A stretch of 62,390 nt of DNA from NCBI GenBank assembly GCA_023248635.1, contig JAHFED010000034.1:1-62390 (forward strand), in the 5' to 3' direction. The stretch comes from Myxococcales bacterium (GTDB lineage: Bacteria; Myxococcota; UBA727; VGSZ01). This document shows, in pieces, positions 24,861 through 62,183 of the stretch. Position numbers and translations under genes: made by a program. The stretch's first letter is position 1. Every line of letters begins with the position of its first letter. A model generated the notes under the pieces. That model saw only the letters and a list, made by a program, of their open reading frames with translations. It was not told where the DNA came from and did no database searches.

Positions 24861-25070
24861 ATCCCCGATCTCGCTGAACTTCGACCGCGGAGCGGTCTCG
24901 TTCATCGCCGTCGGGGATGCTCTTCTGGGAGGTCTGGTGCAGACCTCCCCCCGCCCCGGCGGAGCCGGACGCGGGGCCCCCCACCAACTCCGCGTTCCGC
25001 GGGCGCTTCACGCGCATCCCGCGTCTTTCCCATCTCGGAACGCGGTCGAACATCAAGCGGACGCGGGATG
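24861..25070 (+). repeat. Multi-hairpin element, copy 2 (~210 bp)
   Basis: This is a near-identical inverted copy of 7161-7375. It starts at the base after the lipoprotein stop codon with ATCCCCGA. Its second hairpin is a perfect 9-bp stem, GGAGGTCTG/CAGACCTCC, with a 3-nt loop; copy 1 has a one-base bulge there. The terminal stem CATCCCGCGTC/GACGCGGGATG is conserved. As with copy 1, the ATCCCCGA end faces the 3' end of a gene on the same strand. It accounts for most of the 304-bp gap before the exonuclease gene; the remaining ~90 bp shows nothing I can name. Confidence 0.8.
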
Positions 25071-30546: not shown

Positions 30547-32199
30547 ATGCGCTTGGTGATTGCTCATGTCGTCGTCGTCTTGGCGTTGAGCGGCTGCAAA
30601 CCAGCAGAGCCCGAGAAAGACCGCACTGCGCCCCGCGTCATCGCCGTCGAACCCAGCGATCCCGTGGTGCCCGTCGACGTCGCCTTCGTCATCACGGTGA
30701 GCGAGGATCTGCTGGCCACCACGGTGGACGCCGATCCCACCTCGCAGACGGTGACCGTCGTGCTGGTGCCGCGGGCGGCCACGCTCGATGCGCTCATCAC
30801 CGACTTCAACTCTCCACCACTGGCCGACAGCCGCCAGGACGAGCCCGTGCCGGTCGACGTCGACGCCGACGGCGCCGCCCTCGTGATCACGCCCCTCGCT
30901 CCTTTGGAGCCGCGCACGGCGTATGTGCTGCTCCTGGGCAGTGACATCACCGACGCCGCCAGCAATCCCCTCGTCGACGGCAGCGGGCTCAAGGCCTTGT
31001 TTCGCTACGACTTCGAGACCGATGGCGGCCAGCCGACGGTCACCGATGTCGACGTCGATGGTCCCGGTTTGGTTGCCCCAAACCGCCGCCGGCTCGTCAT
31101 CACCTTCAACCAGCCCGTGCAAAATGTCGGCAACGACACGCTCACGCTGACGCCGGCAGCACCCATCGACGCCATCCTCGCCAACGAAGCGCGCACCGAG
31201 GTCACGGTGCTCATCGGGGCCGGTGAGGGCTGCAATCGCCTCGCGCCGTCGACGACGTACACGCTGGCCGTCAGCGCTGCTGTGGTGGGCGATACCGGGC
31301 AGGCTCTTGCTCCTTTCAGCGCGGACTTCACGACGGGTGCGGCCTGCGACGCGGCCCCGAACCTGATCGTCGACGGGCCTGATGCCATCCCCGGCGAGGT
31401 GGCGGCGTCGGTGCGCTTCGAAACGACGAAGGCGTCGACGACGGAAGTGCGTTTTGGTCTGAGCGGCGGCCCCCTGGATTGCCTGGGTGCAGCCTGTCCG
31501 GTGTTGGGCACGCCAGCCCGCGCGGCCATCGCGGGGTCGAGCCCGCCGCGCTTTTTGCACAGCGTGGAGCTGGCGGGGCTCGCCCTCGATTCCTCCTACG
31601 ACGTCGTCGTCAGCGCCGAAGACGACGTCGGCAACACCGCCACCGCGCCGGTCTCCTTCATCACTGCTCCGCTGCCCAAGGTCGCCATCAACGAGGTGAT
31701 GGCCAATCCATCGACGTCGTCGGAGGCCACGGGCGAATACGTCGAGCTGGTGAACTTCGGGGACGTCGTCGTCGACATCTCGGGTTGGCTCCTGCTGGTC
31801 GACGGGGGCGATGAGGGCGGCGGGTGCACGGCCGAGCTGCCCGAGGCCATTGGCCTGGCTCCGGGCGCCTTCCTCGTCGTTGCTGGAGTCAATTTCGACG
31901 AGGAGCACTACGCCCTGGGCGGCGACGTGGCGGTGGTGCAGCTGGCATCGCAATCGGGGGCCAACGCCATGTGCGGGCTGGTGAACGATCCCAAGCCCTT
32001 TCTGCTCGCCGACAGCGACGGGAGGCCGGTGTCGACGGTTTCGAGCCACGCGAGCACCGATCCCAAGGAAAACGGCCTGTCGGTGGAGCGCATCGCGCCA
32101 GACGCCGCCGACGTCGACGAGAGCTTCTGCCTCTGCAAGGCCTCCATCGGCCCCACCCCCGGGCGCGCCAACAGCGTCACCATCGGTGGCTGCGACTGA
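30547..32199 (+). CDS. Lipoprotein with SbsA-like Ig domains and a lamin-tail domain
   Basis: A 550-aa protein with a lipobox in VVLALSGC. Residues ~25-380 form beta domains of the SbsA/Ig-like type (TAPRVIAVEPSDPVV; LVITPLAPLEPRTAYVLLLG), found in surface proteins. The C-terminal third starts VAINEVMANPSTSSEATGEY and continues WLLLVDGG, the signature of a lamin-tail domain, common in secreted bacterial proteins with roles in surface attachment. The protein is probably outer-membrane anchored. A TGGC-loop hairpin array lies between it and the next gene. Confidence 0.72.
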   Translation: MRLVIAHVVVVLALSGCKPAEPEKDRTAPRVIAVEPSDPVVPVDVAFVITVSEDLLATTVDADPTSQTVTVVLVPRAATLDALITDFNSPPLADSRQDEPVPVDVDADGAALVITPLAPLEPRTAYVLLLGSDITDAASNPLVDGSGLKALFRYDFETDGGQPTVTDVDVDGPGLVAPNRRRLVITFNQPVQNVGNDTLTLTPAAPIDAILANEARTEVTVLIGAGEGCNRLAPSTTYTLAVSAAVVGDTGQALAPFSADFTTGAACDAAPNLIVDGPDAIPGEVAASVRFETTKASTTEVRFGLSGGPLDCLGAACPVLGTPARAAIAGSSPPRFLHSVELAGLALDSSYDVVVSAEDDVGNTATAPVSFITAPLPKVAINEVMANPSTSSEATGEYVELVNFGDVVVDISGWLLLVDGGDEGGGCTAELPEAIGLAPGAFLVVAGVNFDEEHYALGGDVAVVQLASQSGANAMCGLVNDPKPFLLADSDGRPVSTVSSHASTDPKENGLSVERIAPDAADVDESFCLCKASIGPTPGRANSVTIGGCD

Positions 32200-32332: not shown

Positions 32333-32424
32333 TTCAAGACGCTGGCGCGTCTTGAAGTTCTGAGGGTTCAAGACACTGGCGCGTCTTGAAGTTCGGTCGG
32401 TTCAAGACGCTGGCGCGTCTCGAA
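32333..32424 (+). repeat. TGGC-loop hairpin repeats, three 34-bp units
   Basis: Three copies start at 32333, 32367 and 32401, exactly 34 bp apart. Each has a 10-bp arm TTCAAGACGC, loop TGGC and a complementary arm, then a ~10-bp linker (GTTCTGAGGG or similar). Copy 2 has A for G in the left arm and copy 3 a C for T in the right arm. They lie 23 bp before the ATG at 32447 and in the leader of that gene. Confidence 0.85.
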
Positions 32425-32446: not shown

Positions 32447-33196
32447 ATGAAGAGCTTTGCTTGCGCCCCCCTCTTTCTCGCGGCCCTCGTCGTCGTCCCG
32501 GCGTCGGCGGCCGTCGCCGAGTCTGAAGCCCTGGCGCGTGCCCAGGGCTTTGTCCCTGCCATCCCGGCCAGCGGCGCCGTCGACGTGCCGACCAACGCGC
32601 TCATCTTCGTGCGGGACGAGTTCTTTACCGAGCTGAGGCTCGTCGACGACGGCGGCGCCATCGCTGAGGTCACCATCTCGACGGCCGTGGGTCACTTCTC
32701 GTCGTTGCTGCGGCTGAGCTTGAACGAGCCCCTGCGGCCCCGCACCACCTACCGCCTCATCGACGTCGTCGGCAACGAAGAAGCCAGCGAGCTCACCTCC
32801 TTCACCACCGGCGACGGCGGCGACGACGACCCACCCACTGCGCCGCTGCTCGAGGATCGGGGCGCCATCGGCGGCGGTGGCTCGCTGGGCATCGTGAGCA
32901 ACGAGCCCGTCGAAGTCGTGAGCGTGAGCCGCGGTGGCACCACCTACTTCGACGTCGTCGACACCGGCGGCGTCATTGTCGAAGGTCAGGGCGAGACGGT
33001 GGTCTCGATCATCGCCTTCGATCGCGCGGGCAACCCCTCGGAGCCCGTGAGCATCGACCTCCTGCTGGGTTTGCCCGACGGCTTGTCGACCCTGTGCTGC
33101 TTCGGGTCGCCGACGAGCTCGCCGACGGCTGCGGCTCCCTTCGGTCTGGCGCTGGTCGCGCTGCGTCGTCGACAGAGGACCCGGGCTCGACGCTGA
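32447..33196 (+). CDS. Exported Ig-like protein with MYXO-CTERM-like tail
   Basis: The ATG at 32447 follows CCGGAG and gives 249 aa; a frame open from 32426 is less likely. A Sec signal (KSFACAPLFLAALVVVPASA) is followed by SbsA-type Ig strands (AIPASGAVDVPTNALIFV). The C-terminus CCFGSPTSSPTAAAPFGLAL ends in an Arg-rich cluster (RRRQRTRARR): a Cys/Gly motif, hydrophobic stretch and basic tail as in MYXO-CTERM sorting signals. The leader contains the three hairpin repeats. The function is unknown. Confidence 0.65.
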   Translation: MKSFACAPLFLAALVVVPASAAVAESEALARAQGFVPAIPASGAVDVPTNALIFVRDEFFTELRLVDDGGAIAEVTISTAVGHFSSLLRLSLNEPLRPRTTYRLIDVVGNEEASELTSFTTGDGGDDDPPTAPLLEDRGAIGGGGSLGIVSNEPVEVVSVSRGGTTYFDVVDTGGVIVEGQGETVVSIIAFDRAGNPSEPVSIDLLLGLPDGLSTLCCFGSPTSSPTAAAPFGLALVALRRRQRTRARR

Positions 33197-44900: not shown

Positions 44901-45247
44901 ATCCAAGGGCGCTGCGGCCTCCGGCCCCCAAGCTGCATCCTCCGGCCTGCGCGCCGAATCCACTGGCGCTCCGGCCTCCGCCCCCAAGCTGCATCCTCCA
45001 GCCTGAGCGCGCCGAATCCACTGGCGCTCCGGCCTCCGGCCCCAAGCTGCATCCTGCGGCCTGAGCGCCGGATCCACTGGCGCTGCGGCCTCCGGCCCCC
45101 AAGCTGCATCCTGCGGCCTGCGCGCCGAATCCACTGGCGCTCCGGCCTCCGCCCCCCAAGCTGCATCTTGCGGCCTGCGCGCCGAATCCACTGGCGCTCC
45201 GGCCTCCGCCCCCAAGCTGCATCTTGCGGCTGCGCGCCGAGTCCATC
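44901..45247 (-). repeat. 56-58-bp tandem direct-repeat array (six units)
   Basis: The anchor AGCTGCAT occurs at 44931, 44987, 45045, 45102, 45159 and 45215, spacings of 56-58 bp. Each unit carries GAATCCACTGGCGCTCCGG, then a GGCC-rich stretch and the anchor. The spacing is not constant and not always a multiple of three, which argues against coding, although one minus-strand frame stays open. The array fills much of the 44794-45329 gap between the activator and the lipoprotein gene, a position typical of enhancer or operator arrays. The remainder of the gap shows only the RBS region of the lipoprotein. Confidence 0.8.
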
Positions 45248-45329: not shown

Positions 45330-46490
45330 ATGACGTGGAAATCTCAGGTGCTCGGACTCTTGTTGTTGCCCCTCGCTCTCCCTCTGGGGGCCGCGAATTG
45401 CCTCACCATCCAGGCCGAAGGCGAAGGCGAAGAGGGCGAAGGAGAAGAGGGCGAAGGAGAAGAGGGCGAAGGAGAAGAAGGCGAGGGCGAAGGCGATCCC
45501 AGCGCCGCGGAATTGGCCGACGCCTTCTCGACCTTCCTGAGCGAGTGCGACGACGCCAACCCCTTCAGCGCCCTCTTGCGCATCGAGCCGGCCCTCTTTG
45601 CCAACAACTTCGACACCGAGGAGATCCGCGACCACCTCGACCAACTCTTCGCCAACCCAGAGATCACGGTGAACGAAGAGGCCTATGCCGCCTGCCTCAC
45701 GGACCTCGAGAGTTGCGCCTCGTCCGCGTTTGATCAGGACTCGGTGTGCAACCGGGTCTTTGAAGGCACCCGCGCCGTCGACGACGGCTGCGCCGACAAG
45801 AACGTGTGCCAGCCCGGTCTGCAGTGCACGTCCAGCACCCTGGAGTGCGGAACCTGCGTGGCGAACCCCGCGCTCGGAGGGAGCTGTCAAGCCGACAACG
45901 GCGCCGAGCTCGACTGCGGCGACAACGTTTGTGATCAGGGGGTGGAGGACACCTGCGTCGCTCGCGACCTCGCCCCGGGCGTGGTGTGTGACTTCGACCC
46001 CGACCGGTGTGCCGAGGGCACCCATTGCAACTTCGCCAACAACGACGACGTGGATCCGACCTGCGTTGCCGAGGCCCCCGCCCCCGAGGTCGACGACCCC
46101 TGCACCGACGACTGCGGCGGCACCTTCAGCGGTCTGGCTTGCGTGGCCGAGCGCTGCGTGCTGGTCACCCCGGTTCAGCCCGACGGGGGCGCGTGCGACT
46201 CAGCGGCTGCCGTCCAAGTCGTGCTCTACTGCGTCAACCAGATCGCCGGGCTGAACGCCTGCATCGACGCCGACGGCGACGGCGACGGCGTTTGCACCGC
46301 CCTCCCCACCAGCGGCCCTTGTGCCGACGGCCGCTGCGCTTCAGGCAACGTTTGCAACGAAGCGGACAATTGCGTGGCGCTGCCCGGGGCTGGCCAGCCC
46401 TGCATTGAGGGCGATTGCGCCGAGGATCTCCAGTGCAACGACCAGGATCGCTGCGAGGATCTGTTCCCCGACCTTGTCTGCCCGGCTTGA
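45330..46490 (+). CDS. Cys-rich (Gly-Glu)-stalk surface protein
   Basis: The ATG at 45330 has CGGAGG nine bases upstream and gives 386 aa. The signal peptide ends LPLGAANC, possibly a lipoprotein site although Asn at -1 is unusual. An acidic EGEGEEGEGEEG stalk follows, then a helical region and a C-terminal half with repeated Cys pairs (CQPGLQCTSSTLECGTC; CAEGTHCNF; CADGRCASGNVC), like other myxobacterial Cys-rich surface proteins. Function unknown. A strong terminator follows the stop. Confidence 0.7.
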   Translation: MTWKSQVLGLLLLPLALPLGAANCLTIQAEGEGEEGEGEEGEGEEGEGEEGEGEGDPSAAELADAFSTFLSECDDANPFSALLRIEPALFANNFDTEEIRDHLDQLFANPEITVNEEAYAACLTDLESCASSAFDQDSVCNRVFEGTRAVDDGCADKNVCQPGLQCTSSTLECGTCVANPALGGSCQADNGAELDCGDNVCDQGVEDTCVARDLAPGVVCDFDPDRCAEGTHCNFANNDDVDPTCVAEAPAPEVDDPCTDDCGGTFSGLACVAERCVLVTPVQPDGGACDSAAAVQVVLYCVNQIAGLNACIDADGDGDGVCTALPTSGPCADGRCASGNVCNEADNCVALPGAGQPCIEGDCAEDLQCNDQDRCEDLFPDLVCPA

Positions 46491-46502
46491 TTTCACCGAC
46501 GC

Positions 46503-46531
46503 CGCCGAAGCGCCCTGTGGGTGCTTCGGCG
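46503..46531 (+). terminator. Rho-independent-like terminator
   Basis: CGCCGAAGC (46503-46511) and GCTTCGGCG (46523-46531) form a perfect 9-bp stem with an 11-nt loop, starting 12 bp after the stop codon of the Cys-rich protein gene and followed by TTTC. Confidence 0.6.
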
Positions 46532-46548
46532 TTTCAGGCGGTGCGCGA

Positions 46549-46984
46549 CTTGAGGTTCAAGACATGCCAGCCAACGCTCAAAGTACTTCCTGCTTTGCGC
46601 CGTTGGCACGGCTCAAAGTGCCGATGTTTGAGCCGTTGGCACGGCTCAAAGTGCCGATGTTTGAGCCGTTGGCACGGCTCAAAGTGCCGATGTTTGAGCC
46701 GTTGGCACGGCTCAAAGTGCTTCCTGCTTTGCGCCGTTGGCACGGCGCAAAGTGCTTCGTTGGCACGGCTCAACGTGCTTCCTGGTTTGCGCCGTTGGCA
46801 CGGCGCAAAGTGCTTCCTGGTTTGCGCCGTTGGCACGGCGCAAAGTGCTTCCTGGTTTGCGCCGTTGGCACGGCGCAAAGTGCTTCCTGGTTTGCGCCGT
46901 TGGCACGGCGCAAAGTGTCGATGGTTTGAGCGGTTGGCACGGCTCAAAGTGCTTCCGGTGTTGCGCCGTTGGCACGCGCAACGG
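46549..46984 (+). repeat. TGGC-loop hairpin array with two interchangeable stem types
   Basis: About a dozen hairpins with loop TGGC. Two stem types alternate: TTTGAGCCGT with its complement, and TTTGCGCCGT with its complement, with linkers GTGCCGATG or GTGCTTCCTGG (units 33-35 bp). The second and third stem bases change together on both arms, so pairing is kept. The first full hairpin is a hybrid with one arm of each type, one unit is a half-copy (near 46759-46775), and the last copies are degenerate. A half-unit of the other repeat family (TTGAGGTTCAAGAC) flanks the left end at 46549. The array fills most of the 46491-47064 gap; 46985-47064 holds only the hyfB leader. Confidence 0.85.
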
Positions 46985-47064
46985 CGGCAGCTGGTTGTTT
47001 TCCGATCGACGTTGACAGCAGCGATGCGGGGTGATGTTGCGGTCCTTGGAAGTAGGGCCGACGC

Positions 47065-49038
47065 GTGTCCACGTTGCTTCTCAGCATCCCCGTGTTGCTC
47101 GTCGGCGCTGCGCTCTCCATCGCGCTGCGGTCGAACCGGGGCAGCGCGCTGGTGGCTCTGCTCAGCCAGGCGATAGCCACCGTGTTGGTGCTGGTCGCCG
47201 TGGTGCCGCTGCTGCGGGGGGGCAGGGCCCTGTCGGCGTCGTGGGCGTGGTCGGCGCCGGTCGATTCCATCACCTTTCGCGTCGACGGACTGAGCGCCTT
47301 TTTTCTGGCCTGGTCGCTGCCCATGACGCTGCTCGGCACCGGGTACGCCGCAGGCTACCTGCGCTCCTACTTCGATGCTGGCCGCCGCGGCGGTTCGCAT
47401 TTCGCGCTGCTGAACCTGGTCTCGTTGTCCTTCGTCCTCATCTACACAGTGCAAAACGCGCTGGTGTTCTTGCTCGGCTGGGAGATCGCCGCCGTCGCTG
47501 CCTGGCTGCTGGTCATCTGGGACTATCCGAACCAGAAGATCCGCTTCGCGGGCTTCAACTATCTGGTCTCGACCCACGTCGGGCTCTTTGTCCTCGTCGC
47601 TGCGTTCATGCTCTTGCACAGCCGCACCGACTCGATGGACTTCGGCGCCTTCGGGGCGTTCTTGGGCAAAGCAGGTTCCACGCGGGCCACGGTCTTTCTC
47701 TTGCTCGGCCTCTCCTTCGCGCTCAAGTCGGCGTTTTTCCCCTTCCACACCTGGCTGCCCAGAGCCCACGCCGCCGCACCCGCGCATGTCTCGGCCCTGA
47801 TGTCGGGCGTCATCCACAAGGCGGGGCTGTTTGGGCTGCTGCGCTTCCTCCTGCTCATGGGCCGTCCCGACGAATGGATGGGCTGGACCATCCTCTGTTT
47901 TGGCGCGCTCTCGGCCTTCTTCGGCGTCATGTACACGTCGACGCAGCGGGATCTGAAACGGCTGCTCGGCTATTCGTCGACGGAGAACGTCGGCATCGTG
48001 GCCATGGGCTTCGGCGTCGGCTGCTTGGGCTGGACTTGGAACCTCCCCGTCTTGTCGGCCTGCGGATTTTCAGCGGGCCTGCTGCACCTCTTCAACCACG
48101 CTCTGTTCAAGTGTCTGCTCTTTTACGCCGCCGGTTCTGTGTACCGCGCCACCCACAGCGTCGACGTCGAACGGCTGGGTGGATTGGCCAAGCGCTTGCC
48201 GGCGACGGCCTTCTTCTTCTTGGTGGGGGGCCTCGCGATCTCGGCGCTGCCACCCCTCAATGGCTTCGTAAGCGAGCTCCTGCTCTACGCGGGCCTGCTC
48301 TCGGGGAACGCACCCTCGAGCCAGGAAAACGTCGTGCTGGTGACGGCGGCGGCGCTGTTGGCCTTCGTCGGCGGCGTCAGCGCGCTGGCCATGACGCGAG
48401 CCTTCGGCCTGACGTTCTTGGGCAACGCTCGCGAACCCCACCGGCCCGTGGGCCCCGAAGCCCCGGTATCGATGATGGTGCCTATGGTCCTGCACGTCGT
48501 CGGCGTCGTCGTCGTCGGCCTCGCGCCCCAGGTTGGCCTGGGGCTCTCCCGCGCCGCGCTCCAGCTCTTTCCGGTGGCAGCCGGCTCCGTCGACGACGTT
48601 CTGCTGCCCCTGGGGCCGGTGTTTTTGGCCAGCCGGGTGCTCGCGCTGGGGCTCTTGATGACGGGTCTTCTGGCGTGGTGGCGAGGTCGGCACGCGCGCC
48701 GGAGTGTGACCTGGGGCTGCGGCTACACGGCTGCGACCCCGCGCATGCAGTACACGGGCAGCTCGTTTTCGGCTCCCTTCGCTCTCCTCTTTGCGTCGGT
48801 GTTGCCGGCTCTTCGCCGTGAGAGCTTGCCCAGCGAGCTCTTGCCCCGCGCTCCGGGACACCTCGCGACCCACCACCCCGACGCCGTCGAAAAGCGCATG
48901 TTCGAAGTGCTTGGCCAGGGCGAAGACTTCGTGGTGCAAGCCTCGGAGCGCATCCCGGAGCAACCGCGGGTCGCCTTCGCCGCCGGCCTGGTGGCCCTGG
49001 TGATCATCGGCGCGCTCCTGCTCGGAGCCGGGCGATGA
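47065..49038 (+). CDS. hyfB: HyfB/NuoL-like antiporter subunit of Ehr-type complex
   Basis: The GTG start gives 657 aa with many membrane helices. The segment FALKSAFFPFHTWLPRAHAA, then HVSALMSGVIHKAG, is the conserved proton-channel region of NuoL/HyfB/Mrp-type subunits, including the key Lys and His residues. The C-terminus contains WGCGYTAATPRMQYTGSSF, typical of HyfB. As first gene of a six-gene operon with 4-bp overlaps it forms the ion-pumping arm of a membrane redox complex. A TGGC hairpin array lies directly upstream. Confidence 0.85.
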   Translation: MSTLLLSIPVLLVGAALSIALRSNRGSALVALLSQAIATVLVLVAVVPLLRGGRALSASWAWSAPVDSITFRVDGLSAFFLAWSLPMTLLGTGYAAGYLRSYFDAGRRGGSHFALLNLVSLSFVLIYTVQNALVFLLGWEIAAVAAWLLVIWDYPNQKIRFAGFNYLVSTHVGLFVLVAAFMLLHSRTDSMDFGAFGAFLGKAGSTRATVFLLLGLSFALKSAFFPFHTWLPRAHAAAPAHVSALMSGVIHKAGLFGLLRFLLLMGRPDEWMGWTILCFGALSAFFGVMYTSTQRDLKRLLGYSSTENVGIVAMGFGVGCLGWTWNLPVLSACGFSAGLLHLFNHALFKCLLFYAAGSVYRATHSVDVERLGGLAKRLPATAFFFLVGGLAISALPPLNGFVSELLLYAGLLSGNAPSSQENVVLVTAAALLAFVGGVSALAMTRAFGLTFLGNAREPHRPVGPEAPVSMMVPMVLHVVGVVVVGLAPQVGLGLSRAALQLFPVAAGSVDDVLLPLGPVFLASRVLALGLLMTGLLAWWRGRHARRSVTWGCGYTAATPRMQYTGSSFSAPFALLFASVLPALRRESLPSELLPRAPGHLATHHPDAVEKRMFEVLGQGEDFVVQASERIPEQPRVAFAAGLVALVIIGALLLGAGR

Positions 49039-49961
49039 TCACGATGATCAAGGTCGCCGACGTCGTCGTTCTGCTCGTGATGCCCTTCGTGCTCACGGGC
49101 GTGATCAACCGCGTGAAGGCCTTGTGGTCGGGCCGCAAAGGGCCCCCGATCTTGCAGTCGGCCTTCGACGTCGTGCGCCTGCTACGCAAGTCGTCGGTCT
49201 ACAGCACGACGACGACGCCGCTCTTTCGCATGGCACCTTGGGTGCTCCTGGTGACATCCCTGGCATCTGCCGTCGTCGCTCCGCTGCTGGGATCGGAACC
49301 CCTGGCCTCCTTCGCCTTCGATTTCGTCTGGTTCGCCTACGTCTGGGGCCTGGGCCGCGTGTTCATCATGTTGGCGGCCCTCGACACCGGCAGCTCCTTC
49401 GAGGGCATGGGCGCTGCGCGCGAGGCGACCTTTTCCACGCTACTCGAGCCCAGCTGGTTCCTCGTCGCCGGCGCTCTCTCTCTGATCACGCACACCCCCA
49501 CCCTGCACGAAGCCCTGGCGCTGCGCGTCGACAGCGCTGCCGCCGCCTTCGTCTGGACTGCGGCTGTGGCTGCGCTCTTGATCGTCTTGCAGGTCGAGAC
49601 GGCGCGCATGCCCATCGACGATCCGACCACCCACCTCGAGCTCACCATGGTTCACGAGGTCATGGTGCTCGATCACAGCGGCCCCGATCTCGCTGCCATC
49701 CAAGTGGGTTCAGCGCTCAAGCTCTTGGTGGGCTCCTCCCTCATCGCCACCCTGCTCAATCCCTGGGCCGGCGAGAGCAGCCTGCGGGCGGCGTCGTCGA
49801 ACCTCGCTTTGGTCGTCGTCGTCGCCGTCGTCGTCGGCACCTTCGAGTCGCTGATGGCCCGCTTCAAGCTGAAAGTCGTTCCCCTCTACATCTTCGTGGC
49901 CCTGGGCGCGGGCGCCCTGGCACTGCTGGCCACCACCGGCCAGATGGGATCGGGGCGATGA
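49035..49961 (+). CDS. hyfC: HyfC/NuoH-like membrane subunit
   Basis: A 308-aa protein with about eight membrane helices. It has the NuoH/HycD signature: GRKGPPILQSAFDVVRLLRK near the N-terminus, then SSFEGMGAAREATFSTLLEP, and QVETARMPIDDPTTHLEL with the charged residues of the quinone/ion coupling region. NuoH-type subunits connect the hydrophilic arm to the antiporter subunits. The start overlaps the hyfB stop and the stop overlaps the hyfE start. Confidence 0.88.
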   Translation: MITMIKVADVVVLLVMPFVLTGVINRVKALWSGRKGPPILQSAFDVVRLLRKSSVYSTTTTPLFRMAPWVLLVTSLASAVVAPLLGSEPLASFAFDFVWFAYVWGLGRVFIMLAALDTGSSFEGMGAAREATFSTLLEPSWFLVAGALSLITHTPTLHEALALRVDSAAAAFVWTAAVAALLIVLQVETARMPIDDPTTHLELTMVHEVMVLDHSGPDLAAIQVGSALKLLVGSSLIATLLNPWAGESSLRAASSNLALVVVVAVVVGTFESLMARFKLKVVPLYIFVALGAGALALLATTGQMGSGR

Positions 49962-50695
49962 GCCCGCTGCTGATCGCCTTGCTCGGCGTGATGTTGGTGC
50001 CGCTGTTCGTGGCGACGTGGCGCACGAGCTTGCTCGGGCTTGCTTGCCAAGGGCTGCTGCTGGCCTGGCTCGCGTATGACGTGTTGATGTTCAAGCCGCT
50101 GGCGGGGCTTGAAGTTTGGATGTTCAAGACGCTGGCGCGTCTTGAAACGATGCCGGACCTCGCCACAGCCAGCCAGGCCGGTGCCTGGCTGACCCTCTTC
50201 GACCTCGCGGTGATCCGCGGCCTCGTGGCGCCGGCCGCTCTGTACGCGGTGCTGCGGGCGCGCGCCCAGCCCTCCCGCGACGACGTGCTGCCCCCCAACC
50301 TGCTCACCTGGACGCTGGCCCTCGGCATCGTGTTGGTCGCCTTCACGGTGTCGGAGTCGTTGGTGGCCGCGGCCGGCCAGCAGCAGACCCTCGTCTTCGT
50401 CGCCGTCGCAGGCCTGCTCTTGGGCTTCTTGGTGCTCTCAACCCAATCGAGCCCGCTGAGCCAGATGATCGGCCTGCTGCGAATCGAAAACGCCATCGCC
50501 CTCTTCGAGCTCGGTGGCGAGCCCGAGCCCGCCCTGGGCATCCAACTCGCCCAGGTCGCCGTCGTCGTCGCCACCATCGCTTTGTTTCGCTGGTACTTGA
50601 AGAGCGTGAGCAGTGCTTCAGGCATCTCGGCGGCTGAGGCAGTCGCTGACGGTGCTGGCGCTGGCGACGCGCTGGTCGAAGGTCCAACGCTGTGA
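49958..50695 (+). CDS. hyfE: HyfE/NuoK-like membrane subunit with in-frame repeat insertion
   Basis: A 245-aa membrane protein similar in layout to HyfE (NuoK-like first helices plus additional C-terminal ones). The helix pair LACQGLLLAWLAYDVL and WLTLFDLAVIRGLVAPAALY should be joined by a short loop. Here residues ~43-64 instead read MFKPLAGLEVW MFKTLARLET, which is two 33-bp TGGC-hairpin repeat units translated in frame. The rest, including LSQMIGLLRIENAIALFELG, is normal HyfE. The insertion adds about 22 residues to one loop. The complex probably tolerates it because the unit length is a multiple of three. Confidence 0.82.
   Translation: MSPLLIALLGVMLVPLFVATWRTSLLGLACQGLLLAWLAYDVLMFKPLAGLEVWMFKTLARLETMPDLATASQAGAWLTLFDLAVIRGLVAPAALYAVLRARAQPSRDDVLPPNLLTWTLALGIVLVAFTVSESLVAAAGQQQTLVFVAVAGLLLGFLVLSTQSSPLSQMIGLLRIENAIALFELGGEPEPALGIQLAQVAVVVATIALFRWYLKSVSSASGISAAEAVADGAGAGDALVEGPTL
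50090..50146 (+). repeat. Two TGGC-loop hairpin units inside hyfE
   Basis: Hairpins start at 50090 (TTCAAGCCGC, loop TGGC) and 50123 (TTCAAGACGC, loop TGGC), exactly 33 bp apart. Intergenic arrays of the same family have 34-bp periods, so the coding copies have lost one base and stay in frame. The linker GAAGTTTGGATG is identical to that of the remnant at 55.05 kb. Confidence 0.88.
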
Positions 50696-54370: not shown

Positions 54371-55042
54371 CTACTTGACGATGCGTTCGGCGTCGCCGCT
54401 GCTCGCCGACTGCTCGTGCAAGGACCAGAAGGTCTCGGCGATGGCGGCGGGATCGAGAGCCCCGCCCCCGGGCTTGACGACGCCGTCGACGGTGACGGTG
54501 GCGACGCGGATGCCGCTCTCCTTGAGCTCTTTGTGCAGCGAGAGCGCGAGGTTCTTGATGCCGGCCTTGCCGATGGCCAACGACGCCATGGCCGGCCAAG
54601 GATCGAGGGCCAGGCCGCCGCCGGTGAACAAGATCGTGCCCTTTCGACGCGCCTTCATCGCGGGCACGACCTGCTGCGCGCACACCAGGGCGCCGCCAAC
54701 GTTGACGCGGAATTCGCGCACCAGTCGCTCTACGCCGATGTCGAAGGGCGAGCCGCGCTTTACGACAGCGGCGTTGTAGATGAGGACGTCGACGGCGCCG
54801 AGCTCGTTGTGGATGCGAGTGAGGGCGTCGACCAACGAGGGCGCGTGCTCGGCATCGGCGGGGAAGGCGTCGGCGGTGAGGCCCGTCGCCTTCATGCCCT
54901 CGACGAAGCCGTCGAGGCTCTCTTTGCGGCGCGCGATGAGACCCAGGGCATAGCCCGCGCGAGCGAAGCGCTTGGCCACCGCCTGGCCGATGCCGGGTCC
55001 GGTGCCGACGACGACGCACACGCCAGCTGGTGAAGCACTCAT
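54371..55042 (-). CDS. Short-chain dehydrogenase/reductase with atypical active site
   Basis: A 223-aa Rossmann-fold protein with GTGPGIGQAV at the cofactor site and NAAVVKRGS as the NNAG-equivalent. The usual Ser and Tyr-x3-Lys are altered: ILFTGGG occupies the Ser region and SLAIGKAG the Tyr region, keeping only the Lys. This pattern occurs in an SDR subfamily with F/LAxGK sequences, so it may not be inactive; catalysis by the classical mechanism is unlikely. It converges with the Ehr operon with four bases between stops. Confidence 0.7.
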   Translation of the reverse strand: MSASPAGVCVVVGTGPGIGQAVAKRFARAGYALGLIARRKESLDGFVEGMKATGLTADAFPADAEHAPSLVDALTRIHNELGAVDVLIYNAAVVKRGSPFDIGVERLVREFRVNVGGALVCAQQVVPAMKARRKGTILFTGGGLALDPWPAMASLAIGKAGIKNLALSLHKELKESGIRVATVTVDGVVKPGGGALDPAAIAETFWSLHEQSASSGDAERIVK

Positions 55043-55049
55043 GACGTTC

Positions 55050-55088
55050 CTTGAAGTTTGGATGTTCCAGCCGCTGGCGCGGCTTCAA
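55050..55088 (-). repeat. TGGC-loop hairpin remnant between two minus-strand genes
   Basis: A half-unit CTTGAAGTTTGGATG is followed by arms TTCCAGCCGC and GCGGCTTCAA around TGGC (two arm mismatches). The linker matches the hyfE copies exactly. It fills the gap between the methyltransferase stop and the SDR start. Confidence 0.7.
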
Positions 55089-55090
55089 GG

Positions 55091-55954
55091 CTACTTGAGG
55101 GCGACGACATAGCACAGCCACGCAGGGTCGGCGTGACCCCGGAGGGCGCGGCGGTAGTTGCCTGAAGGGTTGCCGTCTTTGTCGTCGGTCTCCCAGTAGA
55201 CATGGCGGGCCGAGAAGCCGGCTTCGTCGAGGAGCTCGAGCAACTCGGGCAGGGTCCACAGCCGCCAATCGTAGGTGAAGGCCTTCTCGATGGCCGAACC
55301 ATCTGGGAATCGAAAATGGATGTGAAAGAGGGCGTCGGCGCTGACGGGGTCGAAGGACTCTTGGTGCCAGACGTAGCGGAACGGCGGATTGTCGAGCTTG
55401 TCTTGGGCTGTGGGCCGTGCGACCTGCCGTCCCTCGACGACGTCGTCGGCATACATGGCGCCCCCCCCCATCATGTCGAAGACGAAGATGCCTTCGTCGG
55501 CCAGTGAGCGGTGCACCTGCCTGAAGTAGCGCAGCACCTCGGCCCGACGCTTGAAAATATAGAACGAATAATTCTGGGCAGCGATGATCTCCGCAGTCGT
55601 CGTCGTCGTCATCACGTCTTGCTTCAGCAGGGTCACGCGCTGCTGCTGCTCGGCGCTGAGCTTGTTCAGGTAGTGGGTGCGCCCATAAGACAGAGGTTCG
55701 TCGTCGAGGTCGACGCCAATGGCCCGGCGCTCTTTGCTGGTCTTCACCCACTCGCAGCACACCGCGAAGGCCGCGCAGAAGTCCTCGCGCAGCGACGTCG
55801 CCTCCCGTCCAAAGGCGTCCTTGTAGAAACGGCGGAACATCGAGACCTCGTGCTCGGGGTCCTGCACGCTCAGCCGGTAGAGGGCATATTTGTCAGCGCC
55901 GTCGGCGAGGGAGGGCCTGGTTTTGGTCTTTTTCGAGGAGCTGGTCTTCGCCAT
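55091..55954 (-). CDS. Class I SAM-dependent methyltransferase
   Basis: A 287-aa protein. The SAM-binding region has LREDFCAAFAVCCEW, which fits the DREDFCGT-like motif of a small methyltransferase family, then AIGVDLDDEPLSYG as the acidic loop. IFVFDMMGGGAMY closes the sheet. The N-terminus is Lys/Ser-rich and flexible. The substrate is unknown. A patch near 55540-55680 has AT-rich codons. It is upstream of the SDR gene on the same strand, separated by the repeat remnant, and may be co-transcribed. Confidence 0.78.
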   Translation of the reverse strand: MAKTSSSKKTKTRPSLADGADKYALYRLSVQDPEHEVSMFRRFYKDAFGREATSLREDFCAAFAVCCEWVKTSKERRAIGVDLDDEPLSYGRTHYLNKLSAEQQQRVTLLKQDVMTTTTTAEIIAAQNYSFYIFKRRAEVLRYFRQVHRSLADEGIFVFDMMGGGAMYADDVVEGRQVARPTAQDKLDNPPFRYVWHQESFDPVSADALFHIHFRFPDGSAIEKAFTYDWRLWTLPELLELLDEAGFSARHVYWETDDKDGNPSGNYRRALRGHADPAWLCYVVALK

Positions 55955-56181: not shown

Positions 56182-58401
56182 GTGCCGCCCGTGACCGAGG
56201 CGAAGCAGACCACGACGACGTTTGGCCGCTACGAGCTGGTGGAGCTGCTGGCCACCGGGGGCATGGCCGAGATCTTCATGGCCCGCACCCGCATGGGGGG
56301 CATCGCCAAGACCTGCGTCATCAAGCGCATTCTCCCCGAGTTTTCGAACAACCGGCAGTTCGTGTCGATGTTCATCGACGAAGCCCGCATCACCATCAAC
56401 CTCGACCACGACAACGTCGTCAAGCTGCTGGATTTCGGCCAGGTCGATAGCGCCTATTTCATGGCCATCGATTACGTCGACGGCTTCGACCTCGTCGATC
56501 TGCTGCGAGCGGTCAAAGCCCGCGGCGAAGGCGTCCCCCCTTTGGTCGCGGCTCACATTGCCCGCTGCATGGCGCGAGGTCTGGCCGCCGCCCACGACGC
56601 CAAGGACCACAAGGGTCGTCCCATGGGCGTCGTGCACCGAGACGTGAGCCCCCAAAACGTCTTCGTCGGCTGGGACGGCTCGGTGAAGATCGGCGACTTC
56701 GGCATCGCCAGCGCCCGCAACAAGCTGACCCGCACCACGCCGGGGACGGTGAAGGGCAAGTTTGGCTACATGTCGCCGGAGCAGGCCCAGGGGGGGGCTG
56801 TCGATCACCGCACCGACGTGTGGGCAGTCGGCGTAGTGCTCTGGGAAATGCTCGTGGGCGCCCGACTCTTCGCCACCGACACCCCCATCGAGACCCTCGC
56901 CCGCGTCATGGAGATGCCCATCCCGCCGCCGTCGGAGGAGAGGCCCGCTGTGCCTCAGGAGCTCGATCGAGTGGTGCTGCGCTCTCTATGTCGCCCCTTG
57001 AGTCTGCGGCTCGAGTCCGCCGCCGCCCTCGCTGCCGCCCTCGACGCGGTCATCGCTGGCGCCTTCGGAACGGCCGATCTCGAGAGCGCGCTGCCGACGC
57101 TGGGGCTGTCGCGGGCGGGTCAGGAGTCAGACCCGGTCCCCACACCCCCGCCCCGCGAACGTACGCGCACTCTCGATCCCATCGACGAACGCCTGCGCTT
57201 CCTGCACGAAGAGCTGCGCAAGAACCAGAACCTGTGGATCCTCGTCGACATCGGCGAGCGCCACGCCACCCTCGGGCACCGTGGCGAAGCGATGTCGGCG
57301 ATCCGCACCGCCAGCGCCGTCTTCGCCCACCGCGGGTTGCTGGTGCAGGCCCTGTGCGCGGTTCACCTGCTCAAGCCCCTGATCGACGCTGCCGCCTTCG
57401 AGGGCGAGCTGCAGGCGCTGGCGCATCTGCGAGGCCACGACCGCGACCGCCTCCTGGAGGCCGTCGAGCGTCTCGAGCACAAAGACTTCTGGTCCCTCGT
57501 GCAAGAGGCGGATCCCACCGGTCTGGGTCTCGAGCAGACCGAGCTGACCCTGGTGCGCCACGCCGCACCGCTGCTGGGTTCGGTGACGCCGTCCGACTTC
57601 GTGCGCCTGGGCAAGCTCGCGCGGGTCGAGAAGAAGGCCCAGGGATCGACCGTGGTGCGCGAAGGCGACAAGGGCGACGCGCTCTATGCCGTGGGCCGGG
57701 GCCGCGTCGTCGTTCACACTGCCACCCACAACCACGAGCCCACCACCACCAACCGGGCGCGCGTGTACCTGGGGGCCCTCACCGAAGGCGACTTCTTCGG
57801 CGAGTTCTCATTCCTGACCCAATCACCGCGCAGCGCCACCGTCGAAGCCGCCGCCGACTGCTTGTTCTTGCGCCTCGATCGGGTCGCCGTCGACGAGCTG
57901 GTGGCCAGCGACGCGTCGTTTCGCGAGCCCTTGCTCGAGTTCTACAAAGAGCGGGTCGCCGAACTCATCCTCGCCAAGAACCCCATCTTGGGAGCGCTGC
58001 CCCCCGAGGCACGCCGCGGACTCATCAAGCACGCCAGCGTCGACAAATTCCTCGACGGCACCTCCATCGTCTCCGAGGGCGACGACGCCGATGAGCTCTT
58101 CTTCATCATCTCGGGCGAGGTCGAAGTCTATCGCCGCGAAGCCGGGATGTACGTGTTCATCAACAAGCTGCACGAAGGACAGTTCTTCGGCGAGATGGCA
58201 GCGCTGCAGCGCACGCCGCGGCGGGCCAGCGTGCGGGCCATGGGTGACGTCGAGGTCATGGTGGTCTCGCGCGAAGAGATCGAGCGCATTCTCGACGTCG
58301 CCGAAGATGTGCGCGTGCTCTTCGACAAGGCGATGAGCGCGCGGCAACACGAGAGCGAAGAGCGAGTCAGAGAGAGCACGCGCATCTTCGAAGGCATCTG
58401 A
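56182..58401 (+). CDS. Ser/Thr protein kinase with tandem cyclic-nucleotide-binding domains
   Basis: A GTG at 56182 (GGGGTT upstream) gives 739 aa; GTG 56191 is also possible and the frame opens at 56035. The kinase domain is residues ~14-290, with LATGGMAEIFMA, HRDVSPQN (152-159), DFGIAS (D172) and GYMSPEQAQG. After a helical linker there are two cNMP-binding domains at ~470-595 and ~599-719. Each has the phosphate-binding cassette: EGDFFGEFSFLTQSPRSATV and EGQFFGEMAALQRTPRRASV. In PKA/PKG the Arg of this cassette binds cyclic-nucleotide phosphate, and both copies keep it. A bacterial kinase with two CNB domains implies cAMP- or cGMP-gated phosphorylation. A 34-bp repeat array follows the stop. 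Confidence 0.85.
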   Translation: MPPVTEAKQTTTTFGRYELVELLATGGMAEIFMARTRMGGIAKTCVIKRILPEFSNNRQFVSMFIDEARITINLDHDNVVKLLDFGQVDSAYFMAIDYVDGFDLVDLLRAVKARGEGVPPLVAAHIARCMARGLAAAHDAKDHKGRPMGVVHRDVSPQNVFVGWDGSVKIGDFGIASARNKLTRTTPGTVKGKFGYMSPEQAQGGAVDHRTDVWAVGVVLWEMLVGARLFATDTPIETLARVMEMPIPPPSEERPAVPQELDRVVLRSLCRPLSLRLESAAALAAALDAVIAGAFGTADLESALPTLGLSRAGQESDPVPTPPPRERTRTLDPIDERLRFLHEELRKNQNLWILVDIGERHATLGHRGEAMSAIRTASAVFAHRGLLVQALCAVHLLKPLIDAAAFEGELQALAHLRGHDRDRLLEAVERLEHKDFWSLVQEADPTGLGLEQTELTLVRHAAPLLGSVTPSDFVRLGKLARVEKKAQGSTVVREGDKGDALYAVGRGRVVVHTATHNHEPTTTNRARVYLGALTEGDFFGEFSFLTQSPRSATVEAAADCLFLRLDRVAVDELVASDASFREPLLEFYKERVAELILAKNPILGALPPEARRGLIKHASVDKFLDGTSIVSEGDDADELFFIISGEVEVYRREAGMYVFINKLHEGQFFGEMAALQRTPRRASVRAMGDVEVMVVSREEIERILDVAEDVRVLFDKAMSARQHESEERVRESTRIFEGI

Positions 58402-58472: not shown

Positions 58473-58776
58473 TTGAAGTGTTCATGGTTCAAGACGCTGG
58501 CGCGTCTTGAAGTGTTGATGGTTCAAGACGCTGGCGCGTCTTGAAGTGTTGATGGTTCAAGACGCTGGCGCGTCTTGAGGTTTTGATGGTTCAAGACGCT
58601 GGCGCGTCTTGAGGTTTTGATGGTTCAAGACGCTGGCGCGTCTTGAGGTTTTGATGGTTCAAGACGCTGGCGCGTCTTGAAGTGTTGATGGTTCAAGACG
58701 CTGGCGCGTCTTGAGGTTTTGATGGTTCAAGACGCTGGCGCGTCTGGACGTTTTGATGCTGGCGCGTCTTGACGTT
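58473..58776 (+). repeat. TGGC-loop hairpin array, eight 34-bp units plus half units
   Basis: Eight copies of arms TTCAAGACGC and GCGTCTTGAA around loop TGGC, with linkers GTGTTGATGG or GTTTTGATGG, periodic at 34 bp. It starts with a half-unit (TTGAAGTG at 58473) and ends with a copy mutated in its right arm and a truncated half. All arm sequences are identical apart from the last, suggesting recent expansion. It fills most of the 58402-58913 gap; the last ~140 bp before the ATG at 58914 shows no clear feature. Confidence 0.88.
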
Positions 58777-58913: not shown

Positions 58914-61900
58914 ATGCACTCCCCTCATCGGACGACCCCGGTGCCCTCGACGCGGGCGGGCCGCGGCCGCAAGCGTGCCTTCACCTTGCTGGCGATCCTG
59001 ATCATCGGGATCATCGTCGCCGCCGGCGCCGCAGCGCTCGTCCTTGGTGCGCGCGAGAGCGCCCACGCTGCCGCCGATGACAGCCGCAGCGGCGAGGCCT
59101 GGGGGGTGGCGATGGCGGGCTTGACGTGGGCCCAGCTCAACCTCAGCGGCGACACCGGCAAGGCCGCGTTGCGCGCCGCCGCTGGCGGGACCGCGACGAC
59201 ACTGGTGACGCCGAGTACGCCGACGGGGATCGCCATCCATCCCTTCGATGCCAACGACGCCTTCGCCGGTGTCGGCGTCGCCCCGCCGGCCCGCGGCCTC
59301 GACACCCTGGACTGGAGACACTTCGAAAACGGTCACTTCGCCCTGGTCGGCGCGCACGATCCCTTGTCCAGCTCTGCGCTCGTGGTTCGAGCGGTCGGGC
59401 GGGTGGGGGACACCCAGGTCGTACTCGAGACCAACTTGGTCGTCAGCGTTTTCACCGGCTTGCCAGCAGCGTTCACCGGCTGTTTTACCGGTCAACAACA
59501 GGTTTCATTCGGTGATGAAGAATCGCCCTATGATTATTACGGTAATATGCGCTTCGACGGCAACGGCGGTGTGCCCATCGGGATGAACTCTGATCACAAT
59601 CGCATCAATGGCTTGACCAGGCTTCAATACCTGCCCTCTCCGAGCGCGCCGCCGCCGGACATCGGCCGGCTCGACCCCATCGACCAATATCCAACGAACC
59701 TGCACTGGCGCGGCACCCAGAGCTTGCGACCGCTGGGTGTGGTGTCGGCGGCGGCAGGCGGCGAACCGCTGGCGCTCGCCATCGCAGGCGTCTGTGCCGC
59801 CGTCAGCAACCCCGTGGGAGGCACGCCGGAGTTGAACATGAACGCCGCCGACGTCGCGGGGCTCGCTGGCTGGTCGGCCAATCCCTACCTGGGCAATGAC
59901 CCGCGCCTCGTCTATTTCATGGACACGTCCAACGGACCCGACGTGGACAAAACCATGGGGCTGGGTCTCAACGCCGGCGGCTACGTCGACGGGGTCCAGC
60001 TGCGGAATGGGTGCCCAGCCGGCGTCGGCTGCGGGGACGCGAGGGTGCAGCGGGGTCTCCCCATCATCGCCTACCGAGGCACACCGAACATCGTCGACGA
60101 CGCCTCCGGGGGCTTCCTGGGCGAAGAGGACTGGGTGCCGGCCGAGGCCGAGACCGGCAACTCGAGCTACGACAAGTTCGCCCGCCAAGCCTTCTACGCC
60201 TGCCCGAACATGGGTGGCGAGGACAGCACGTTCAACCGGGCGACGCGGTCCTGCGGCGCCGGCCAAGGCGACCTGTCCCGCAAGAACTCGTCGTGGACGA
60301 ACTACGGCGTCAGGCACAGCGGGCGGGCCTGGGGTTTCGTCGAGTCGATCCTCCGTCATTGCTCGGGCAGCGGCGACTCCATCGATCCCAACAACGGGTC
60401 GCCGTGGCAGAGCGCGAGCAACCCCAATGGCATCAAGTGCGCATCGGCCTTCGCCTACCTTGAAAACGTCGCCGCTTGCCTGATCGTCCCCCGCAGCCTG
60501 ACCCGCAACCCTGGGTTTCCGACGACGATTCGAGGCCGCAGCGCCTTGCGCCCCTCGGGAGAGCCAGGTCCAACCCCCCCCCGCGAAGCTGCGGGTGGGG
60601 ACGGCTTGCAGAACGACTTCGCCGGTTGCCACCCGGGCTGTTTGATCGCCGCCAGCTTCGACAGCACCTTTCCCACGGCCGAGACGCCCTATCGCTCCAC
60701 CTGCATCAACCTCGATGCCGAGCGCGTGAGCTCCTATGGGCCGGACATCCAAAAAGCCATGCGAACAGCGGCAACCAGCGGTCCCAACGCTTGGGATCCC
60801 CTGCTCCCCGCCGTCGCCGACACAGCGCCGATGGGGAATCTGGTGCCCACCTACGCGCTGAATTGGATGACCTACGCGGCGGGCACCCCGCGGGCGACGA
60901 CTGAGTTTCCGGGCCTGGATCTCGCTGACGGGCTCGACTTTGGCGCTCCGCCCACATTTTTCAGCAGCGACACCGATGCCATGGTGGGGACCACCACCGG
61001 CGTCGACAAAGCGATGGACCGCTTCGGCAACGTCATCAACCAGCCCGGGTTGGTGAGTGAGCGAGGCAACCCCAGCCTGATCACGCGCTTGGACATGACC
61101 GACCGCGGACCGCTGGGCACCTGCCAACAGAATTGCCTCGGTTACGGCTTCGGCGAGGATCGCACCTACGGCGCCCACCGCGGCACATCCCAAGGGACCT
61201 TGGGTTCGACGGCGCGGCCCGACGCCTGTGTTGCGAGGGTGCCCAAGGAACCCAACGGCACCTTCGCCACGGTCCACTGCAACCTCGACTACGATCGCGA
61301 CGGCATTTTCGACCGCAAGAGCTATGCGATCGCCTCGTCGTACCGCGAGGAGTGCGCTGACCCGCACGACGGCATCGCCTGGGCCCCCGCCTTCAACATC
61401 TCGTCGTCCAACACAGCGCTCCGCGGCGACGGGTGCGCAAATGCGCTGCCCAACGATGCATCCAGCGCGCCGACGGTGACGCTGACAGCCTTTTGCGATC
61501 AAAGTGCGCTCCAGACCGCGGTGCCTCGTCTCGGGGTGGGCGCGACGCCGCTGTCGAGGACGAATCTCGGGGTCAGGGGCGTTCTCAGAGACGGCCGCAA
61601 CTGGTTTGGCGGCGCCAAGTGCCACATGGGCTCCAGCGTCACCAGCTTCCAGGACGCGGCCGGCGTCGCCGTCGCCTCCCCCGTCCACCCTCATACCGGC
61701 GCGTTGGCCAGCATCCCCAACACCGACCTCGATGCCTTTGGACATCCGGACTATTGGATCGAGGACGAGTGCCCCAACCCGGTGGTGGTCTCGCTGGGCC
61801 CCGAAGTACGACTCGACGTGGGCCACATCTGCGGCTGCGGTGTGCTTGTCCTCAAGGACACGGCCCTTTCTTTCGCTGCCGACAGCCACCTGCTCTGGCG

Positions 61901-62183
61901 CGGCCTCGTGACCTGGCAAAACGAAAACGACCCGCCTGGCGAGGACGAGCTGTCGGTCCTCGAAGACGGCGCGGCCACCTTCGTCATTGAAGGCGGCGTC
62001 CTTCTCACCGGCGACCGGGTGTTCCGCATGCACGTCAACGACAAGGGCGACCTCGACGGTGAGGACGTCACCAACAACGAAGGCCGCTTCTTCAAGCAGT
62101 CGTGGCGCCAGAACTCCGCGGCCCTGGGCGAGGTGTTCGCCAACCAGACGCGTGCATTGAAAGCGGTCCGGCGGGTGCGCTGA
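58914..62183 (+). CDS. Very large pilin/PilX-like exported protein
   Basis: The ATG at 58914 gives 1089 aa. The N-terminus is a basic segment and a single hydrophobic helix (KRAFTLLAILIIGIIVAA), then a helix with acidic/Arg residues (GARESAHAAADDSRSGEAWG), like PilX or minor pilins. The canonical cleavage Gly is replaced by Arg and the fifth-position Glu by Ala, so it is not a typical type IV pilin. The remaining ~1000 residues form a large, Gly/Asp/Asn-rich beta domain with Cys pairs and no recognised family. It may be the tip or an adhesin of a pilus-like system, or a membrane-anchored surface protein. Confidence 0.6.
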   Translation: MHSPHRTTPVPSTRAGRGRKRAFTLLAILIIGIIVAAGAAALVLGARESAHAAADDSRSGEAWGVAMAGLTWAQLNLSGDTGKAALRAAAGGTATTLVTPSTPTGIAIHPFDANDAFAGVGVAPPARGLDTLDWRHFENGHFALVGAHDPLSSSALVVRAVGRVGDTQVVLETNLVVSVFTGLPAAFTGCFTGQQQVSFGDEESPYDYYGNMRFDGNGGVPIGMNSDHNRINGLTRLQYLPSPSAPPPDIGRLDPIDQYPTNLHWRGTQSLRPLGVVSAAAGGEPLALAIAGVCAAVSNPVGGTPELNMNAADVAGLAGWSANPYLGNDPRLVYFMDTSNGPDVDKTMGLGLNAGGYVDGVQLRNGCPAGVGCGDARVQRGLPIIAYRGTPNIVDDASGGFLGEEDWVPAEAETGNSSYDKFARQAFYACPNMGGEDSTFNRATRSCGAGQGDLSRKNSSWTNYGVRHSGRAWGFVESILRHCSGSGDSIDPNNGSPWQSASNPNGIKCASAFAYLENVAACLIVPRSLTRNPGFPTTIRGRSALRPSGEPGPTPPREAAGGDGLQNDFAGCHPGCLIAASFDSTFPTAETPYRSTCINLDAERVSSYGPDIQKAMRTAATSGPNAWDPLLPAVADTAPMGNLVPTYALNWMTYAAGTPRATTEFPGLDLADGLDFGAPPTFFSSDTDAMVGTTTGVDKAMDRFGNVINQPGLVSERGNPSLITRLDMTDRGPLGTCQQNCLGYGFGEDRTYGAHRGTSQGTLGSTARPDACVARVPKEPNGTFATVHCNLDYDRDGIFDRKSYAIASSYREECADPHDGIAWAPAFNISSSNTALRGDGCANALPNDASSAPTVTLTAFCDQSALQTAVPRLGVGATPLSRTNLGVRGVLRDGRNWFGGAKCHMGSSVTSFQDAAGVAVASPVHPHTGALASIPNTDLDAFGHPDYWIEDECPNPVVVSLGPEVRLDVGHICGCGVLVLKDTALSFAADSHLLWRGLVTWQNENDPPGEDELSVLEDGAATFVIEGGVLLTGDRVFRMHVNDKGDLDGEDVTNNEGRFFKQSWRQNSAALGEVFANQTRALKAVRRVR

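Follow-up and report, generated by a model that had tools for sequence, protein, structure and literature searches.

TGGC-loop hairpin repeats of a Myxococcales bacterium form a species-specific, REP-like family

TGGC hairpins and their arrays in the window

The window (the whole stretch of 62,390 nucleotides that we analysed) is one contig of a 6.53-Mb assembly that is 96.7% complete. The nearest relatives of its proteins belong to Myxococcota. Scanning it for hairpins with a TGGC loop, we found 24 on the + strand with at least 8 of 10 stem pairs, 13 of which form all 10 pairs. Their positions are given in Table 1. An earlier note on this DNA had counted about 26 such hairpins, and we reach about the same number when decayed copies are included. 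Each unit is made up of a 9-11-nt linker, which usually starts with GT and ends with TG, TGG or TGC, and, after it, a 24-nt hairpin with a stem of 9-10 bp. The loop differs by strand, reading TGGC on one and GCCA on the opposite one. Folding computations predict that each unit forms this hairpin as single-stranded DNA, at about -10 to -11 kcal/mol.

Table 1. Positions of the TGGC hairpins and of the gene that carries two units, in window coordinates
Feature	Position	Strand	Description
3-hairpin A-type array	32333..32424	+	34-nt period; flanking genes 30547-32199 and 32447-33196
B/C-type TGGC array	46594..46976	+	10 good copies at 46594-46948
Hybrid hairpin opening the 46.6-kb array	46594..46617	+	left arm C-type TTTGCGCCGT, right arm B-type ACGGCTCAAA
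Gene carrying two-unit insertion	49958..50695	+	NADH dehydrogenase/hydrogenase-like membrane cluster; no Pfam match
Pair of A-type hairpins	50090..50146	+	33-nt period; in frame within coding gene 49958-50695
Solo A-type hairpin, partly decayed, with 5' linker	55065..55088	+	divergent/tandem gap, genes 54371-55021 and 55091-55954
8-hairpin A-type array	58488..58749	+	34-nt period; flanking genes 56191-58401 and 58941-62183

The units of the window are spaced at 33-35 nt, the sole exception being a 23-nt truncated unit near 46755-46777 in the B/C array. The near-constant loop and unit length described earlier thus hold, and so does the hybrid nature of the first hairpin of that array. Decayed copies flank the stretch of good copies on either side, one of them forming the array end. 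A separate 57-nt tandem repeat lies at 44901-45245 in six copies (ATCCACTGGCGCTCCGGCCTCC...); it has CACTGGCGC and no hairpin unit.

Copy number, species specificity and stem families

The 24-mer pattern of family A, TTCAAGNCGCTGGCGCGNCTTGAA, has 231 exact matches in the genome (104 forward and 127 reverse), and the reversed control of the pattern has none. Allowing up to two mismatches, we count 398 copies of family A in this genome; a further 194 genomes of the phylum, of which two belong to the same genus, contain none. The preference for the loop is equally sharp. Of the 213 perfect 4-nt-loop hairpins in 1.25 Mb of the genome, 156 have TGGC or GCCA as their loop. Perfect 10-pair stems in this sample number 128 for TGGC, one for CGGC and none for TCGC, yet the CGGC tetramer is about twice as common as TGGC; other tetramers amount to merely a slight admixture of TTGC and TAGC. 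Arrays occur every ~10-13 kb in the sampled pieces of the genome (1.25 Mb, later 1.61 Mb), which were partly picked around known copies, so that densities per Mb are not unbiased. We conclude that the TGGC hairpins are genuine, their number far exceeding what chance would give.

No loop is enriched in samples of ~0.2 Mb each from the relatives G002 and G003. A covariance-model search of 57 relatives, in which the best candidates per genome were scored, returned one marginal match (E 0.005). The hairpin family is species-specific and, as far as our searches reach, undescribed. A phage origin was rejected, as family A has no exact match among viral contigs.

Four stem families share the TGGC loop: A (TTCAAGACGC), B (TTTGAGCCGT), C (TTTGCGCCGT) and D (GTTCATCGCC). 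The window has no copy of family D, GTTCATCGCC-TGGC-GGCGATGAAT, whose stem is unrelated to the others while its loop is identical. A second hairpin, GAATTCACCGACAGCGCTTCGCGTGTCGGTGAATT, usually precedes the D hairpin, giving a composite of ~63 nt. Single arrays mix families, for example as D-A-A-A or A-C-C-A, and of 8 hybrid B/C hairpins 7 are terminal in their array, compared with 35 of the 90 B/C hairpins in arrays. These hybrids and mixed arrays show the mixing between families that the earlier note had read as recombination.

The earlier note had also argued that both arms change together and took this as evidence of selection on hairpin structure. The first part holds between families: in the window set, 5 of 10 pairs are changed on both sides, more than in slid partners and, when cells changed on both sides are counted, more than in shuffles. 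It fails within family A, where 116 changed pairs in 176 copies are one-sided and three are two-sided, two of these being compensated; in family D, 20 changed pairs are one-sided and one is two-sided. The covariation signal of the window thus reflects fixed differences between families and rests on few independent events. The sequence shows no selection that restores pairing copy by copy. The argument for selection on structure is weakened accordingly; constraint is visible instead in the arms and loop, which are better conserved than the linkers. Stem changes are commoner in the right (3') than in the left arm (79 versus 37 in A, 18 versus 2 in D), an excess that may be informative on how units are copied.

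Hairpin repeats with 3-nt loops, unrelated to the TGGC units, also occur genome-wide, for instance near 24936 of the window. They comprise GGGAGGTCTG-CAC-CAGACCTCCC with variants (loops CAC, GGA and ATG) and a TCGAGGC-GAA-GCCTCGA type.

Insertion, array growth and genomic context

Four coding genes allow the insertion of units to be viewed against homologues. A single 33-nt unit lies in frame in a fused 2-oxoacid dehydrogenase E1 gene (C134:100175-102316), the product of which matches the Pfam models E1_dh, Transket_pyr and Transketolase_C. The homologue in G003, a genome of the same family, is exactly 11 codons shorter at the insert; the insert peptide is missing from the genomes of the same genus too, but the loop at that place is variable in them. 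Six aligned homologues of the window gene with two units are ~25 residues shorter at the insertion. An EPSP synthase gene (L179:3079-4446) carries the D composite in frame, translated as EFTDSASRVGELSTGSSPGGD. This translation matches ~137 other places of the genome, many of them in long open frames, and the D composite apparently decorates many proteins of the organism. Finally, a glyoxalase-like protein carries an A unit where PDB entry 4z04 is ~20 residues shorter, which supports insertion and gives no exact length. Boundaries are inexact in three of the four cases. Single units are shown to lie in frame, at precise places, within genes that relatives have in unit-free form.

Linkers are 94-95% identical within arrays and 74-83% identical between arrays, while hairpins are 94-98% identical between arrays. 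Because linkers are near-identical within an array and differ from one array to another, units appear to have been duplicated locally, head to tail, and this mode of array growth is shown indirectly. Arrays run head-to-tail, with both orientations present in 10 of 97. At the left end of family-A arrays, TGAAG plus 8-9 nt precedes the first hairpin in 41 of 70 cases, compared with 0.3% at random positions; 31 of the 70 have the TTGAAG version, and 29 lack TGAA, including the best-mapped insertion. At the 3' side the unit ends with the hairpin, ...CTTGAA, and unrelated sequence follows. The 3' end of a family-A unit thus recreates the unit's own left flank, which would make tandem stacking possible. 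A CRISPR was rejected, since the linkers, at 9-11 nt, are too short for spacers and recur from unit to unit of an array.

Calling genes with a codon-usage script, which gives approximate boundaries, we find 134 of 152 arrays (88%) to be intergenic in sequence that is 13.5% intergenic and 86.5% coding. The arrays lie in 70 tandem, 35 divergent and 22 convergent contexts, matching the background; for divergent gaps the figures are 35 of 127 arrays and 187 of 749 background gaps. Orientation agrees with the flanking tandem genes in 39 of 63 cases (p 0.08).

The intergenic location raises the question of whether the arrays are gene-end elements at the RNA level (terminators, processing sites or 3' stabilisers) that spread through a benefit to the host. 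In tandem gaps their distance to the upstream 3' end is somewhat smaller (61 nt) than that to the downstream start (103 nt, p 0.07), and the array is stable as an RNA fold (z -5.1), as such a role would have it. The orientation preference is not significant, however, divergent gaps are occupied at the background level, and arrays have no T tract; no terminator-like site was found at 46400-47100. A role in termination or transcript processing, which the earlier note had listed among the possibilities, is therefore unsupported. Units within coding genes and the lack of the repeats in same-genus species also speak against gene-end elements, and we consider such a role improbable.

In E. coli, BIMEs bind gyrase and IHF. 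The TGGC arrays are BIME-like, widely dispersed and constant in their core, as would suit binding sites of a chromosome-organising or DNA-repair protein. Against this, the repeats are species-specific, the same protein would need to bind four different stems, and array orientation is unrelated to local GC skew. We regard such binding sites as more improbable still. A replication-strand bias was likewise rejected, orientation being without relation to local GC skew.

Mobilisation and comparison with known palindromic repeats

Taking these observations together, we moderately favour a family of mobile palindromes that is specific to this species, REP-like and non-autonomous. A unit would insert singly, as 33-35 nt, and would then expand locally in tandem. 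For family A, insertion may prefer sites ending in (T)TGAA, and the 3' end of the inserted unit would recreate the site for stacking. We infer the movement from relatives that differ by at least 20% in protein sequence. Effects on genes nearby, if there are any, are probably incidental.

The earlier note had pointed to a RAYT-type transposase as a gene to look for. In our search Y1_Tnp (PF01797; RAYT/IS200) was not found in the genome, which is 96.7% complete, and matched 5 of 14 control genomes. The IS110 Transposase_20 and TnpB zinc-ribbon domains also gave no match in the genome and are present in control genomes. Some relatives have Y1 matches, weak or strong. As the assembly is without a few percent of the genome, an enzyme gene may have been missed. 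The units could then be classical REPs with an unrecognised tag, mobilised by a Y1 enzyme that has been lost or is encoded in the unassembled part. They match REPs in size, in palindromic form, in how many copies there are and in being mainly intergenic with some copies inside genes (PMC3733652), and relatives with Y1 genes would fit. Such an origin is nevertheless rather unlikely, given that the genome has no Y1_Tnp match, that GTAG or its complement adjoins none of 422 hairpins and that the arrays are head-to-tail instead of inverted pairs.

The genome has a single reverse transcriptase, a type XIII retron RT, and ~50 nt 5' of the first msr of this retron there is an A-type hairpin. The retron locus (L177:520-3070, - strand; C11:74.5-77.1 kb) comprises three msr-msd cassettes that are nearly identical, of which one precedes the RT and two follow it; their msr parts match, and their msd tip stems are completely different in sequence, each perfectly paired. 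Dispersal through hairpin DNA reverse-transcribed by this RT can be imagined. We rejected it as very improbable, because the three msd hairpins have no sequence in common with the repeats and an array near the RT is unremarkable at the spacing of arrays given above. The A-type hairpin near the msr is accordingly taken as an ordinary insertion.

Within the mobile-palindrome reading, the mobile form would be a folded single strand that is recognised via its loop. Of all features, this loop alone is constant among the four stem families; being asymmetric, it marks the strand, and loops are read by known REP/IS200 enzymes. TnpA-REP enzymes read the loop and stem irregularities strand-specifically (PMC8266576), and by analogy a model of loop recognition is reasonable. 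Tentatively, an enzyme outside the Y1/RAYT, IS110 and TnpB types might read the TGGC (GCCA) loop of folded DNA whatever the stem and insert units of 33-35 nt, though we would put no great weight on it. If this were true, stems could diverge freely provided that their two arms match, and hairpin repeats of several kinds, all with one loop, would exist side by side. REP families described so far are classified by the tag that adjoins the stem, and an enzyme is known for one super-family (GTAG). The present genome has at least four stem families united by the loop alone, a short constant unit, arrays that run head-to-tail and coding genes with in-frame insertions, and no enzyme can be recognised in it. 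The repeats may serve as a test case for recognition by loop or tag, for array growth and for the mobilisation of REPs without a RAYT, which has been left open for CGTC REPs (PMC3733652).

Among described repeats, the Rfam 15 covariance models at gathering score gave one tRNA as the sole match in the window, and neither Rfam 15 nor the REP literature yielded a family with matching features, in line with the earlier note. In the broad sense of a REP (a palindrome of 20-40 nt in many, mainly extragenic copies) the TGGC repeats are REP-like, as that note had proposed together with a probably non-autonomous nature. They lie outside both published super-families, which are GTAG-tagged and CGTC-tagged (PMC3733652).

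With the GTAG REPs that have a RAYT (REPINs, BIMEs) the TGGC repeats share palindromes of 20-40 nt, hundreds of copies, a mostly intergenic location with some intragenic copies, several families per genome and a strand-asymmetric loop (PMC3733652, PMC3116915, PMC8266576). They differ in having no adjoining GTAG and no Y1/RAYT gene found in the genome. REPINs are inverted REP pairs, although tandem REP arrays also occur (PMC3116915); inverted (HH/TT) pairs do not predominate among the TGGC units, which are head-to-tail and present at the expected rate between divergent genes.

The CGTC REPs (dRS3, RPE-4/RPE-6) resemble them in stems of 8-9 bp with A-T pairs at the foot, loops of 4-5 nt, no known dedicated transposase and some copies in coding genes (PMC3733652). 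In contrast, counting both sides and both strands, few of the 422 hairpins have an adjoining CGTC, TGTC or CCTC tag. Head-to-tail pairs are described as negligible and clusters as rare in CGTC REPs (PMC3733652), whereas they dominate in this genome.

Rickettsia palindromic elements are translated as in-frame insertions in unrelated protein genes (PMC10969869), and such in-frame decoration is known for some REPs too (PMC3733652). Similar insertions that homologues lack are found here in the E1 gene and in gene 49958-50695 and, less exactly, in the EPSP synthase gene, where the D composite bears the likeness. Compared by their published description, the Rickettsia elements are ~150 nt long (PMC10969869) and differ in this from the TGGC units and from the D composite; the TGGC units further differ from them in being mostly intergenic, in tandem arrays.
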